Assembly: GCA_002774635.1 (NCBI GenBank)
Contig: PEXU01000030.1
Coordinates: 23,368-60,598, forward strand
Direction of reading: 5' to 3'
Source of the DNA: Candidatus Kerfeldbacteria bacterium CG08_land_8_20_14_0_20_40_16
Lineage (GTDB): Bacteria > Patescibacteriota > Patescibacteriia > UM-FILTER-42-10
DNA: 37,231 nt
The notes under the pieces were generated by a model that saw nothing but the letters and a program-made list of their open reading frames with translations, ran no database searches and was not told where the DNA came from. The stretch's first letter is position 1. The number at the start of each line of letters is the position of its first letter. Positions 11,086-32,507 of this stretch are shown here, piece after piece. The position numbers were made by a program, and so were the translations under genes.

Positions 11086-11320
11086 CGTAAAGCATATTGC
11101 TATACTTAAAAGCATGAATCCCGTTAGAGAAAAGCAAATGTTTTACACATAACATTATGCAAAGCTTAAAAAACAAACATTGGTATACTGGTTGCACTAA
11201 CAATCTACGGAAGCGCTTTAGAGAACACAATAATAACTTAATATTATCTATTAAAGGTCGAGGTCCTTTCGTTCTAATTTATTATGAAGCGTGTTTAAAC
11301 AAAGATGATGCTTTTGCTCG

Positions 11321-11350
11321 CCCCGCTTGGAGGCAAGGCCTCTAACGGAG
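11321..11350. repeat. Short degenerate palindrome inserted in the GIY-YIG gene
   Basis: CCCCGCTTGGAGGC-aag-GCCTCTAACGGAG imperfect hairpin related to the CCCCGTTAGA termini; interrupts the AR-ER codons. Confidence 0.55.
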
Positions 11351-11377
11351 CCAGAGAAAGATACCTAAAATCAGGTA

Positions 11378-11432
11378 TGGGCCCCGTTAGAAATTTAAAT
11401 GATTTTCTGTTAAAAATTTCTAACGGGGTGGG
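11378..11432. mobile_element. 47-bp palindromic miniature element with TGGG target duplication
   Basis: TGGG|CCCCGTTAGAAATTT...AAATTTCTAACGGGG|TGGG; 15-bp perfect IRs at 11382-11396 and 11414-11428. Excision restores SGMGKRYLKN. Confidence 0.85.
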
Positions 11433-11480
11433 CAAAAGATATTTAAAAAATCGTCTAAAGCGCTTCCTTTCTCTAACGGG

Positions 11481-12683
11481 ATGAAAGTAGCGTTTTTCAC
11501 CAATAATTATCTTCCCCGAATCAGCGGTGTCGCTAATTCCGTTGAATTTCTAAGAAAATCGCTAGAAGAATTAGGAATAGAGGTGTTTGTTTTTGCGCCA
11601 AGCTATGAAATTAACGATTACCCTTCTAGTCAAGAGCGGATAATCAGAATCCGTTCCTTAAGATTCTGGTGGCTAAAAAGATTTGCGTTTCCACTGCCTT
11701 TTTTTAACATCCAAAAAATAAATCGGGTACTATCTCGCATCCAGCCGGACATTATCCATTTTCACCAGCCTTTTTTACTGGGCCGGCTGGCTCTAAAATG
11801 GGCAATTAAATCTAGAGTGCCGGTGGTTTTCACTTATCACTCTCTTTATGAAGAGTATGTCCATTATTTTCCTTTCCATCAAAAAATATGCAAAAAAATG
11901 GCCAGTTACTACACGGTGGATAGCGCTAACAAAAGCAATTTAATTATTTGTCCCACCGAACAAGTCGCTGATTATCTGCGTGCGAAGGGGGTAAGTAATA
12001 GAATAGTGGTAGTACCAACCGGGATAGACTTTAATTGTTACGGTCAACGCTTTACCGAGAAGCAACTAAGGGAGTTTAAGCAAACTCTCGGGATTACTAC
12101 CGACAATAAAATCTTGCTTTACGTAGGGAGAATGGTTAAAGAAAAAAACATCCAATTTTTATTGAGAGCGGCGGAAAAGATTCTAAAGCAGAGAAAAGAC
12201 ATGATATTAATTATGGTGGGAGACGGCACTCTTCTAAGTTCCTATTGCCGATTCGCTCAAAAGATGAGAATTGATAAACAGATAATCTGGACCGGTTCTC
12301 AGCCGCCGGAAAAACTCCCCTGGTTTTACCAAATTGCTGATCTGTTTCTTTTCCCATCCAAAACCGATACGCAGGCGATCGTGCTTTACGAAGCGTTAGC
12401 CAGCGGTCTGCCGGTGATTGCCGTTGCTTCTTTGGCCAGCAAAGCGATTGTTAAAAACGGTGATAATGGTTTTCTATCTAGTGATGATTTGGGAGAATTT
12501 TCCCGGGCAGTAATCAATAATTTATCTTTCAAACAAAAAAAGCCCATTTTTCTAGAACAAAAGAAATATACCCCGTCCGAAATCGCTCTCTTTGTTTATC
12601 AGCTTTATCAGAAAGTAATTTCAGAGTATTCCTTTGCCAAAAAATATCATTCGGTAAGCTATAAAACTAATGAATCAGTCTGA
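11481..12683 (+). CDS. Glycosyltransferase family 4 (GT-B; diacylglycerol glucosyltransferase-like)
   Basis: 'MKVAFFTNNYLPRISGVANSVEFL...', 'LYVGRMVKEKNIQFLLRAAE', 'LFLFPSKTDTQAIVLYEALASGLPVIAV'. Confidence 0.92.
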   Translation: MKVAFFTNNYLPRISGVANSVEFLRKSLEELGIEVFVFAPSYEINDYPSSQERIIRIRSLRFWWLKRFAFPLPFFNIQKINRVLSRIQPDIIHFHQPFLLGRLALKWAIKSRVPVVFTYHSLYEEYVHYFPFHQKICKKMASYYTVDSANKSNLIICPTEQVADYLRAKGVSNRIVVVPTGIDFNCYGQRFTEKQLREFKQTLGITTDNKILLYVGRMVKEKNIQFLLRAAEKILKQRKDMILIMVGDGTLLSSYCRFAQKMRIDKQIIWTGSQPPEKLPWFYQIADLFLFPSKTDTQAIVLYEALASGLPVIAVASLASKAIVKNGDNGFLSSDDLGEFSRAVINNLSFKQKKPIFLEQKKYTPSEIALFVYQLYQKVISEYSFAKKYHSVSYKTNESV

Positions 12684-15358: not shown

Positions 15359-16457
15359 ATGCGCGAAGTTATTGAAGAGATTATCAAACTGAAGGAAAAA
15401 ATTTCCAAAATATGGAGGTTTCTTTGACCTTGCTGAATCAAAAGCTCAGATCAAAGCGTTGGAATACGAAATGAACCAGCCCGAATTCTGGAAAAACCAG
15501 TCCCGAGCCAAAAAAGTCAGCCAGAAGCTGGATGACTTAAAAAAGGAAGTGTCAGCTTGGGAAAAACTACAGCAGGAAACGACGGAGCTATTAGAAATCG
15601 CTCAATTAGACGAGGCGGACCAGGATGTTAATTTAAGAAAAGAAGCCGAGACTAAGCTCCAAGAGCTCCAAAAAAAGTACGAGCAACTGGAGTTTTTTAC
15701 TTTACTAGATGAAGAGTATGATCGCAATGATGCCATTTTCTCCATTCACGCCGGCACCGGCGGGGTAGACGCCCAAGACTGGACCGCCATGCTTTTAAGA
15801 ATGTATCTCCGCTTCTGTGAAAGAAAAGGGTTTAAAACCAGAATTGTACAGGAAAGCCGCGGGCAGGAGGCCGGAATCAAAAGCGTCACGGTGCTGGTCC
15901 AAGGAACCTGGGCTTATGGCTATTTGAAAGCCGAGGCGGGCGTGCATCGACTGGTTCGCATTTCTCCTTTTGATGCCGAAAAAATGCGGCACACCTCTTT
16001 TGCCCTTTTAGAGGTATTGCCTGATCTGGGAGATTTAAAAAGTATTGAGCTTAAGGAAGAAGATTTAAAAATAGATACTTTCCGTTCTTCCGGCCACGGC
16101 GGCCAGAGCGTTAATACCACTGATTCGGCCGTTAGAATAACTCATAAGCCTACCGGAATAACGGTATCCTGCCAAAACGAACGTTCCCAGCTCCAGAATA
16201 AGGAATTCGCTCTAAAAATACTAAAGAGCAAGCTCCATCAATTGCGGCTTTCCCAACGCAAAAAAAAGCAGAATCAATTAAAAGGAGAAGCAATTTCTGC
16301 GGAATGGGGTAACCAGATCCGTTCTTACGTTCTCCATCCCTATAAAATGGTGAAAGATCATCGGACGAAATATGAAGTAAAAGAACCGGAAAAAGTACTC
16401 AATGGAGAAATTGATGAATTTATCGAAGCTTTCTTGCGAAAGGAAATTAGGAAGTAG
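15359..16457 (+). CDS. prfB: Peptide chain release factor 2, expressed via programmed +1 frameshift
   Basis: ATG at 15359; zero frame ...IWRFL then TGA (15425-15427); +1 frame at CTT TGA C continues DLAESKAQIKALEYEMNQPEFW. SD-like GGAGG at canonical spacing. 'SSGHGGQSVNTTDSAVRITHKPTG' GGQ motif. Confidence 0.95.
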
Positions 16458-16540
16458 GAAGTTAGCTTGTAGGAAGTTAACTTGCGGCTTGTAGATACCT
16501 AAATTCTACAAGCTACAAGCTAATTTCCTAACTTCCTAAC
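16447..16540. repeat. Long imperfect inverted repeat between prfB and glmS, built from TAGGAAGTTAGCTTGTAG-like words
   Basis: TTAGGAAGTAGGAAGTTAGCTTGTAG ... CTACAAGCTACAAGCTAATTTCCTAACTTCCTAA. Confidence 0.7.
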
Positions 16541-21246: not shown

Positions 21247-22116
21247 ATGAAAAAGCAATTGAAACTAATTTTAGTTCTAGGCATACTATTCACAATTTTG
21301 GCGGTGATTGTTGTATTTAATATCCAGGACAAGAAGTTGAAGGTGTATTTTTTAGATGTGGGACAAGGCGATTCCATTCTAATCCGAACACCTAATCACC
21401 AAGACATTTTAATTGACGGCGGTCCGAGTAGCGACGTAGTAAATAAAATCGGCCAGTATCTTCCTTTTTATGACCGCAATATTGAACTCGTAATTCTTAC
21501 CCATGCCCACTCTGATCATGTGGTGGGACTAATTGAAGTTTTAAAGCGCTATCAGGTTGATCAAATATTGTATTCCGGACAGGTAAGTTACCAGTCAAGC
21601 GATTACCTTGCCTGGCTGGAGATTATTAGAAAAAAAGCGGTTCCTTTGCGATCGGTAAAATGTTGCGAGCAAATTTCCTTAGGGGAAAATCTGAACTTGG
21701 AAATTCTGTATCCCTTTGAGGATTTTTCCGGAAAAGAAGTAGAGGATCTTAATGACACTTCTGTTATTAACCGCTTAGTATTTCAGGAGGTAGAATTCTT
21801 ATTCACCGGTGATGCGCCGGTTGAGGTAGAAGAAAAAATGATTGACCAAGGAGTAAATCTGGAGGCGGATGTTTTAAAGGTCGGACATCATGGCAGTAAA
21901 TACTCCTCATCCTTAAAATTTCTTGATTTGGTGAATCCTAAATATGCCATTATTCAATCCGGTGAGGGAAATAAGTTTAGTCATCCTCATTTCAAGACCA
22001 TAAATAATTTAAATAAACAGGGAATTGAAGTTTTAAGGAATGACCAGTGCGGGACAATTATTTTTGGAACAGATGGAGAAACGCTAGATATTAAAAGTGA
22101 AAGGTGTAAAATTTAA
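21247..22116 (+). CDS. ComEC C-terminal-like metallo-beta-lactamase-fold hydrolase
   Basis: 'VYFLDVGQGDSILIRTPNHQDILIDGG', 'LTHAHSDHVVGL', 'LFTGDAPVEVEEKM', 'LKVGHHGSKYSSS'. Confidence 0.93.
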   Translation: MKKQLKLILVLGILFTILAVIVVFNIQDKKLKVYFLDVGQGDSILIRTPNHQDILIDGGPSSDVVNKIGQYLPFYDRNIELVILTHAHSDHVVGLIEVLKRYQVDQILYSGQVSYQSSDYLAWLEIIRKKAVPLRSVKCCEQISLGENLNLEILYPFEDFSGKEVEDLNDTSVINRLVFQEVEFLFTGDAPVEVEEKMIDQGVNLEADVLKVGHHGSKYSSSLKFLDLVNPKYAIIQSGEGNKFSHPHFKTINNLNKQGIEVLRNDQCGTIIFGTDGETLDIKSERCKI

Positions 22117-22149
22117 TTGTAGGCGAAACGCCGGCGTTTCGCCTACAAT
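22116..22149. repeat. 34-bp perfect palindrome
   Basis: ATTGTAGGCGAAACGCCGGCGTTTCGCCTACAAT, no T-tract; starts in the last base of the upstream stop codon. Confidence 0.9.
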
Positions 22150-31505: not shown

Positions 31506-32378
31506 TTATTTTGGCAGAAGAAAACGCATTGGCTTTGACGCAATACTTATCTTTAATTTCTTTTTACTGGTCATTTCACCGTCTATAGTTAGAAGAGCAT
31601 GTTTAGTTTCTAATATAACTGATTTGGTTTCAAAATAGTGCACTTTGTTTTTAGGTTTTTTTCTTAAAATAAAAACTTCCGAGAACGCCCGGGCCAGCTC
31701 TGAAGGTTTGGCTATTTCCAATACTAGCGTATAAAGCATTGGTTTAAGCGGATCCATTCTGTTAAGAGGTTCTCCTCCTACTCGGGGAAGTCCGCTTAAT
31801 ACAAAGACAGCGCTTGCTTTTATGCGGAAAGGAGCCTGATTAGGTAGCGTTAAAGTATAATGGTGTTTCTTAATTCTAAACAAGTGAAAAGGCAGTTTCA
31901 GATAATAGGCCACTGTACCAATTATCCTTTTACTCCAGCGGGGCGTGCCGTTCATTAAATCAGCATGTAATCCCGTTGTTACCCCAGTAATAAAGATTTC
32001 ATTATTATTAACTTGTCCTAAGGGAATTTTCTTAGGAGAACCAAATAAGGCAGTTTTAATTGCCTTTCTTATAATTAGGGATATCTTTAAAGCTTGGGCA
32101 AAAACATTGCCCGAACCAACGGGAATAATGGCTATCGGAAGGTCAATGTTGTTGCGGTACAAAAAACGAGCAGCAAAACTGATCGTTCCGTCTCCGCCCA
32201 AAACAATCAACCGATCCACCGACTGGTCAATGATAGTTAAGGGTATATCTTCTACTTTTTGGAAAATTTGGTAGGAAATTCTTTCTTTTTCCAATTTTTT
32301 GACCAGCTTCTTTAAAGCCAATTTCTGGCGGCGCTCTATACCGGAATTGGGATTAGCCAAAATTAATACTTTTTTCAC
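31506..32378 (-). CDS. Diacylglycerol kinase-catalytic-domain lipid kinase (YegS/BmrU-like)
   Basis: 'KKVLILANPNSG', 'DRLIVLGGDGTISFAARFL', 'IIPVGSGNVFAQAL'. Start codon is GTG at 32376-32378, created at a mobile-element junction. Confidence 0.92.
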   Translation of the reverse strand: MKKVLILANPNSGIERRQKLALKKLVKKLEKERISYQIFQKVEDIPLTIIDQSVDRLIVLGGDGTISFAARFLYRNNIDLPIAIIPVGSGNVFAQALKISLIIRKAIKTALFGSPKKIPLGQVNNNEIFITGVTTGLHADLMNGTPRWSKRIIGTVAYYLKLPFHLFRIKKHHYTLTLPNQAPFRIKASAVFVLSGLPRVGGEPLNRMDPLKPMLYTLVLEIAKPSELARAFSEVFILRKKPKNKVHYFETKSVILETKHALLTIDGEMTSKKKLKISIASKPMRFLLPK

Positions 32379-32481
32379 CCCGTTAGAAATTTAATGAATA
32401 AGATTTATATTAATTACTATATTTAAATTACTAAACTTATTTTTTTGTAACCCGCGTCTAGTAAATTTCTAACGGGGTTCA
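32374..32481. mobile_element. 100-bp palindromic-end element with TTCA target duplication at the lipid kinase start codon
   Basis: TTCA|CCCCGTTAGAAATTTA ... TAAATTTCTAACGGGG|TTCA; 16-bp perfect IRs at 32378-32393 and 32462-32477. Confidence 0.9.
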
Positions 32482-32507
32482 TAACGTTATTTTAGCACAT
32501 TTTGAGT

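Follow-up and report, generated by a model that had tools for sequence, protein, structure and literature searches.

How does a gene keep a usable start codon when a mobile element lands in the old one, and is such a landing an isolated accident or a habit of the element? The question is raised by a 100-bp palindrome directly upstream of a predicted lipid kinase gene in Candidatus Kerfeldbacteria bacterium CG08_land_8_20_14_0_20_40_16, which lies in the window analysed here (37,231 nucleotides; GCA_002774635.1, contig PEXU01000030.1, positions 23,368 to 60,598; coordinates below count from the first letter of the window). We consider it likely that the palindrome is a miniature copy of a family that inserts into start codons, and that a nuclease encoded by this family moves both its full-length and its miniature elements.

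The palindrome lies between TTCA repeats exactly as a preliminary description of the locus had placed it. From 32374 to 32481 the layout is TTCA, CCCCGTTAGAAATTTA (32378-32393), 68 bp, TAAATTTCTAACGGGG (32462-32477), TTCA, and the two 16-bp inverted repeat arms match perfectly (Table 1). The transcribed strand has a predicted folding energy of -28.2 kcal/mol (z -4.5 against shuffled sequences), and the 16-mer arm, allowing up to three mismatches, occurs five times in the window against 0.69 expected. An Rfam search of the window returned no RNA family at the gathering threshold. The original ATG (32482-32480) opens a short open reading frame (ORF) into the element (32482-32423, minus strand), as had also been noted; it encodes MNPVRNLLDAGYKKISLVI followed by a stop, and beyond this 19-codon relic the element codes for nothing.

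The kinase locus of the source genome (G000) was compared with those of a congener, Ca. Kerfeldbacteria bacterium CG_4_10_14_0_8_um_filter_42_10 (G001), and of a member of another genus in the same family (G002). The G002 ortholog is free of the element: it reads ...GTGCTACAATGTATTT-ATGAAAAACATG, against GTGCTAAAATAACGTT-ATGAA-element-GTGAAAAAAGTA in the window, and has a promoter-like -10 box 6 nt ahead of an intact ATGAAAAAC (ATGAAA). Because this relative has the start and the box without the element, the site, the start codon and the box are ancestral and the element is an addition. The preliminary description had proposed comparison with element-free relatives as a check on its claim that the element inserted into an ATGAA start and duplicated TGAA; the G002 ortholog and dozens of copies with the same geometry now bear that claim out. 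The box 6 nt before the ATG suggests that the ancestral kinase mRNA was leaderless.

In the kinase frame the first codon is the GTG at 32378, and an in-frame TAA just upstream leaves no alternative upstream start; the original ATG belongs to the relic frame and not to that of the kinase. The base on the left of this copy is A and the one on its right is G, so that the G of GTG comes from the element, as had been proposed. As the sole in-frame start at the right place, GTG stands as the predicted start, and we infer that the kinase is made from it.

The idea of a lone or recent event had to be given up. G001 carries the same element at the same position, so the insertion is older than the split of the two genomes, and insertion into start codons is the rule for the TGAR-flanked copies described below. 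In the G001 copy another insertion, with an N gap behind it, has taken the place of the right part, and a 1-bp deletion shortens the relic ORF to MNPVRNLLDAGYKK and a stop. Finding the same 104 bp in deeply diverged relatives had been named beforehand as a sign against insertion; G001, with this copy in front of a synonymously saturated kinase, comes close to that situation, and the insertion reading survives it because G002 is without the element.

The arms recur throughout G000 and G001. Among these copies we read 53 elements flanked by exact 4-bp repeats, which in one orientation are TAAA, TGAA or TCAA in nearly every case. Of the 52 arm pairs that could be scored unambiguously in these two genomes, 35 had the same 4 bp on both sides, compared with 8.4 in shuffled data. 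The ends of the family can be written YCCCGTTAGA...TCTAACGGGR, with CCCGTTAGA as their common core, and the 4-bp target as about R-TNAR (the hyphen marks the junction). A purine almost always precedes the repeat, and this base tends to match the last base of the element, with a 5-bp repeat of this kind in 41 of 63 TGAR copies. Outside the kinase copy the start codon may simply be duplicated whole, because the last base of the element so often equals the base preceding the target.

Searched by the pattern of close-set ends, the family was found in 68 of 389 genomes of the class and in 26 of 177 genomes of a phylum sample, with 9 to 43 such end pairs in each copy-rich genome; the reversed control pattern had zero matches in both sets. 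No end pairs 0.4-5 kb apart with a matching duplication were found in the loci read. By the features tested (inverted repeats, fixed duplication, short length, multiple copies) the miniature copies classify as miniature inverted-repeat transposable elements (MITEs), and the whole appears to be a family of very small mobile elements spread across the Patescibacteria phylum. At the end of one G000 contig (C50, locus L130) a family element at ATGAA is broken by a different sequence resembling an insertion sequence (IS), with ends GGGTCTTGCCTAGCA/TGCTAGGGAAGGCC and an ORF MKYSKLSTFNIKKI...; the contig breaks there.

Start codons are strongly favoured as targets. In G000 and G001 together, 16 TGAA copies are followed by a long ORF that begins exactly at (A/G)-TGAA and five are not; with about 76 candidate starts and 355 intergenic TGAA sites as the reference, the odds ratio is 15-fold (Fisher p 2e-8). 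Across the class, 148 cases of [AGT]TGAR before an element, in 45 genomes, were among the sites listed, and they comprise 135 ATG, 11 GTG and 2 TTG. The background base before TGAR is A, G or T at 0.34, 0.20 and 0.46, and the excess of ATG is significant (p 8e-49); when a purine is demanded before the target, A is still in excess (p 1e-16). TAAA and TCAA copies are preceded by A in 14 cases and by G in 21, from which the TGAR copies differ (p 7e-11). With one locus taken per genome (n = 30), the right target copy was present in 29, and an ORF of at least 80 codons ran downstream from the junction (R-TG) in 27. TGAR-flanked copies, on these counts, lie almost exclusively in start codons and leave the arrangement ATGAR-element-(A/G)TGAR-gene.

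The invaded genes are often essential, and include some that we take, by eye unless profiled, to encode MurA, MurG, ribosomal protein L5, pyruvate kinase, DNA polymerase I, FtsH, ParB and mannose-1-phosphate guanylyltransferase, and in Kerfeldbacteria presumably CysS, TyrS and UvrC. Where the invaded gene overlaps its neighbour (ATGA; L172, L173, L200, L148), the duplication preserves both the upstream TGA and the downstream start. TANNNT precedes the original ATG by 6-8 nt at all five start-codon copies of G000, a spacing that makes the invaded genes look leaderless, less clearly so in other genomes. In G001 uvrC, a deletion took the native ATG together with the left end of the element, and the GTG of the element is the only remaining start of a gene otherwise under purifying selection (nonsynonymous divergence, dN, 0.10; synonymous divergence, dS, 2.1). 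This locus was considered as an empty site and rejected as such, being a deleted occupied one.

Elements ending in A make up 18 of 28 ends at starts, compared with 31 of 116 ends. Selection for ATG over GTG was considered as the cause, and loses force because the terminal base is correlated with the one that precedes the target. Within the 100-nt subfamily, all six start-codon copies (L002, L013, L077, L078, L079, L082) have one orientation relative to the gene, and copies outside starts are turned the other way with respect to their target. At two loci (L305 in G100, L301 in G018) the reading frame of the host continues through the element, which adds an N-terminal extension to the protein in the manner of Rickettsia palindromic elements; the extended host protein of L305 (MNPVRNLSLSEVIKK...SNGVRKFITSESVTEGHPDKVAD) is presumably an S-adenosylmethionine synthetase.

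The second family member in the window, a 363-bp copy that occupies the start codon of a glycosyltransferase gene (ATG at 11481-11483), contains the remnant of a GIY-YIG nuclease, broken as ...KGRGPFVLIYYEACLNKDDAFA..RERYLKSGM / GKRYLKNRLKRFLSLTG plus stop and split by a nested 47-bp element. About 34 bp of this copy (GCTCGCCCCGCTTGGAGGCAAGGCCTCTAACGGA, at about 11316-11349) are missing in G001 and resemble a further decayed insertion. A class-wide search with the peptide of this remnant led to intact relatives. In G171, G338, G368 and G261 the element measures 277 bp, and a single frame of about 94 codons runs from the original ATG of the host through the GIY-YIG domain. Its N-terminus is of the form M[N/S]PVR (MSPVRE..., MNPVRE..., MNPVRK...), and it ends in ...LTG or ...LTR before a TGA that the second target copy supplies with its first three bases; this stop overlaps the new start of the host gene (A-TGA or G-TGA). 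Where the duplication is TATG, the copies use their own ATG (L268, L269), and partial frames occur in G285, where the 275-bp element is out of frame near the start, and in G344, where the ORF ends earlier. The hosts resemble genes for peptidyl-tRNA hydrolase, phosphoglycerate mutase, lipid kinase and an AbiEii-type protein. The full-length ORF matches the Pfam GIY-YIG family (PF01541) with E values of 5e-15 to 3e-16 (56.0 to 60.0 bits, cut-off 22.6), and the alignment retains motif-like YxY, YTG, Arg and Glu positions. Pairwise dN/dS of 0.05-0.23 indicates that the nuclease is maintained by purifying selection.

Several observations connect this nuclease with the miniature copies, which have the same ends as the 277-bp elements. 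Exact family ends stand on both sides of 13 of the 19 loci with a close GIY-YIG relative, and miniature copies are present in 17 of the 21 genomes that have such a relative against 51 of 368 others (p 7e-11, uncorrected for phylogeny). Copy-rich genomes have a mean of 7.4 GIY-YIG genes and copy-poor ones 4.0 (p 4e-6). Other candidates fared worse. Family ends were found at 0 of 30 Y1-transposase loci (PF01797) and at 0 of 22 IS1595-transposase loci (DDE_Tnp_IS1595, PF12762); we rejected Y1/RAYT transposases as the mobiliser, there being no linked ends and no difference between copy-rich and copy-poor genomes, and likewise the IS1595 transposase, to which a truncated ORF at a contig end had drawn attention, for lack of linked ends and of any association. 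The best-scoring GIY-YIG genes in general were also set aside, since only close relatives of the window remnant have flanking ends. Some other GIY-YIG genes of Patescibacteria (L224, L240, L243) end directly at apparent tRNA genes (e.g. ...TAGTTCAGTTGGTAGAACG...), possibly as another mobile type aimed at tRNA genes.

From these data a mechanism can be proposed. The nuclease would cut and move the full-length elements and, in trans, the miniature ones. The nuclease would become a new first cistron, expressed from the promoter and start codon of the host gene, which would itself survive through the 4-nt stop/start overlap by termination-reinitiation; the full-length copies have the better logic here, with the TGA overlapping the new start as in coupled genes. 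Miniature copies would keep only the ends, so that the original ATG of the kinase starts a 19-aa relic peptide. The transcript would still start close to the old ATG or at it, the relic may be translated, and the kinase would be read from GTG by reinitiation or by direct ribosome loading, aided by a hairpin that would bring the old AUGAA beside the new GUGAA. Taken in full, the proposal is of a new class of minimal mobile DNA: a one-gene element of about 277 bp whose GIY-YIG nuclease of about 90 residues serves as a transposase targeting start codons, which takes start codon and promoter from the host and its stop from the duplicated target and creates a new overlapping host start, allowing it to invade essential genes without being lethal, and whose miniature copies reshape the 5' ends of core genes throughout Patescibacteria. 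We lean towards this fuller statement, by a narrower measure than towards the assignment of the kinase element.

Some points weigh against these proposals. The role of the nuclease as mobiliser is one of association only. The gene calls behind the start-site enrichment test are crude, the class-wide listing covers up to ten sites per genome, and the counts come from related genomes and are therefore not independent. The excess of A-ended elements at starts can be target matching, and is no proof of selection on the regenerated codon. Some full-length relatives (L259, L261, L264, L265) lie outside start codons or have unmatched flanks, and the nuclease frame of L257 is out of register with the host ATG. 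No intact full-length copy turned up in G000, where any remaining activity would have to rely on a diverged nuclease, or else is extinct. At the kinase itself, no Shine-Dalgarno sequence precedes the GTG, which sits at the foot of a stable hairpin, and translation of the kinase may therefore be poor.

A reading compatible with a start-codon insertion is that the kinase element has since been co-opted as a regulatory leader, with upstream ORF and hairpin acting as an attenuator, thermosensor or RNase III site, and would be retained for that reason. Its promoter-side part is identical at 72 of 73 aligned bases between G000 and G001, in front of kinases with 39% identity at fourfold sites and dS of about 3; the broken element in the leader of the glycosyltransferase gene shows 94-98% identity between the two species in each 50-bp window, with identity dropping gradually within the gene; and the shared orientation of the six start-codon copies of the 100-nt subfamily would fit as well. 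Against this, the insertion and N gap in G001 take the place of the right half of the kinase copy and leave no conserved hairpin there; strong rearrangement separates the uvrC copies of the two genomes, which are not preserved in a similar way; and the high identity could be the product of transfer or of a chimeric assembly, given that the G001 copies lie next to a scaffold gap and a contig end. The identity may stem from constraint, from local transfer or from a chimera, and we hold co-option to be a tentative idea, with the odds against it.

We think it unlikely, and more so than co-option, that these are ordinary MITEs moved by a DDE or HUH transposase encoded elsewhere, with GIY-YIG as a passenger and the location in start codons a matter of survival. 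Terminal inverted repeats with a target duplication of fixed length are typical of DDE transposons, MITEs often outlive their transposase, and in the compact genomes of Patescibacteria insertions that regenerate a start would be tolerated. The Y1 and IS1595 results given above speak against such an enzyme (these two being the families searched by profile), as does a GIY-YIG ORF that spans the full-length element from end to end under purifying selection. If survival were the whole reason, intergenic sites should be no less favoured than start codons, but insertions are about 15 times more frequent per TGAA at starts.

Considerably less probable is a free-standing homing endonuclease that cuts start regions and is copied in by homologous repair, ends and repeats being incidental. 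GIY-YIG proteins are classic homing endonucleases, and in two families the same start codon of an AbiEii-like gene has been invaded (L253, L254), a pair explained by shared descent or transfer of the locus given that the host proteins are 72% identical. Homing needs homologous flanks and makes no target duplication, whereas these elements have fixed ends and exact 4-bp duplications in dozens of unrelated genes; the abundant non-coding miniature copies would also go unexplained. An artefact of assembly or annotation, suggested by draft metagenome assemblies and by several copies at contig ends, can be dismissed for the family because the same ends, duplication and start geometry recur in dozens of independent genomes, including the single-contig genome G174 with at least 8 family sites, and control patterns stayed at or near zero.

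The features of the window are collected in Table 1. At 22116-22149 the window also holds a perfect 34-bp palindrome, ATTGTAGGCGAAACGCC/GGCGTTTCGCCTACAAT, which looks like a member of a second, unrelated palindromic repeat family; a similar palindrome, AGGCGCGATTCGCGAATCGCGCCT, lies upstream of the kinase in G001 (L028, about 1155-1190). Overlapping inverted and direct repeats (AGGAAATTAGGAAGTAGGAAGTTAGCTTGTAG...) are clustered between two genes at 16441-16537.

Table 1. Coordinates of the elements, genes and associated motifs in the window
Feature	Position	Strand	Evidence or remark
Second family member, decayed full-length type, with GIY-YIG remnant	11119..11481	+	Target-site duplication TGAA at 11115-11118 and 11482-11485
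47-bp miniature element nested in the 11119-11481 copy	11382..11428	.	Target-site duplication TGGG at 11378-11381 and 11429-11432
Glycosyltransferase (family 4 / group 1), A of its ATG from the element	11481..12683	+	
Lipid kinase (DAGK_cat), frame from the regenerated GTG	31506..32378	-	PF00781, E 2.7e-21
Target-site duplication, kinase-adjacent: TTCA (minus strand TGAA, kinase ORF bases 2-5)	32374..32377		
100-bp MITE-type element, miniature non-coding family copy	32378..32477	-	Sequence, fold, arm recurrence
Terminal inverted repeat, gene side; minus strand ends TAAATTTCTAACGGGG, final G is the G of GTG	32378..32393		
Short ORF opened by the original ATG, encoding MNPVRNLLDAGYKKISLVI and a stop	32423..32482	-	
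Terminal inverted repeat, promoter side; minus strand CCCCGTTAGAAATTTA	32462..32477		
Target-site duplication, promoter side: TTCA (TGAA of the original ATGAA)	32478..32481		
Putative -10 box TAAAAT, 6 nt before the original ATG	32489..32494	-	TACAAT at the same spacing in the G002 ortholog

Among known systems, the bacterial MITEs Correia/NEMIS, RUP and BOX are alike in size, inverted repeats, short duplication, copy number and a hairpin in mRNA (PMC10969869), and in both cases the miniature copies carry no transposase. Unlike Correia, RUP and BOX, the present family has its own ends, a 4-bp R-TNAR target, a concentration in start codons with regeneration of NTG, and a full-length relative with GIY-YIG. 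Correia and RUP target TA. Rickettsia palindromic elements lie within ORFs, and the protein includes their translated sequence (PMC10969869). They are similar as palindromes living with protein-coding genes, some in frame, and differ in that most copies of this family are in the start codon and leave the protein unchanged. IS200/IS605 and REP/RAYT (Y1 HUH) systems share short palindromes and insertion beside a tetranucleotide; here the tetranucleotide varies within a subfamily and is duplicated, and no Y1 transposase is linked. To our knowledge, IS200/IS605 elements do not duplicate the tetranucleotide.

The full-length unit was also compared with other GIY-YIG genes. UPF0213 proteins (PDB 1zg2, 1ywl) are the nearest solved structures by sequence (E 1e-8 and 0.01), and we know of none that lies between such ends. 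Some of the free-standing homing genes of T4 (Seg proteins) overlap neighbouring ORFs in stop/start overlaps (PMC2988022); as here, a small GIY-YIG gene slotted between genes is the whole mobile unit. The description of the Seg genes gives no inverted ends, target duplication or miniature derivatives, and their mobility is by repair at the homing site (PMC2988022); the nuclease of this family, unlike Seg, is little more than the catalytic domain. We rejected a homing endonuclease gene as the class of the full-length unit in view of its many unrelated sites, inverted ends and duplications, and the unit is not an IS of the two families examined (Y1, IS1595) either. Insertions coding for GIY-YIG also occur in rRNA genes of the Candidate Phyla Radiation, unlike any intron, at poorly conserved sites and alongside short insertions that lack ORFs (PMC11270868). 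Compared by description, they differ in being situated in rRNA genes, and that text does not mention inverted repeats or target duplications (PMC11270868).

The open-access literature yielded no description of GIY-YIG together with inverted repeats and duplications, of Patescibacteria MITEs of this kind, or of insertion into start codons. We know of no described transposable element that targets start codons or borrows both ends of its reading frame from a host gene, and of none in which a GIY-YIG nuclease is combined with inverted ends and target duplications. If the proposal is true, the full-length unit would possibly be the smallest autonomous DNA transposon and would involve a new integration chemistry. 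It would also show how, by a simple rule, a parasite can invade essential genes without harm, and would explain MNPVR-type N-termini and misplaced gene starts in the annotation of Patescibacteria. The invaded genes, some of them apparently leaderless, offer a natural series of start sites for the study of translation initiation in Patescibacteria.
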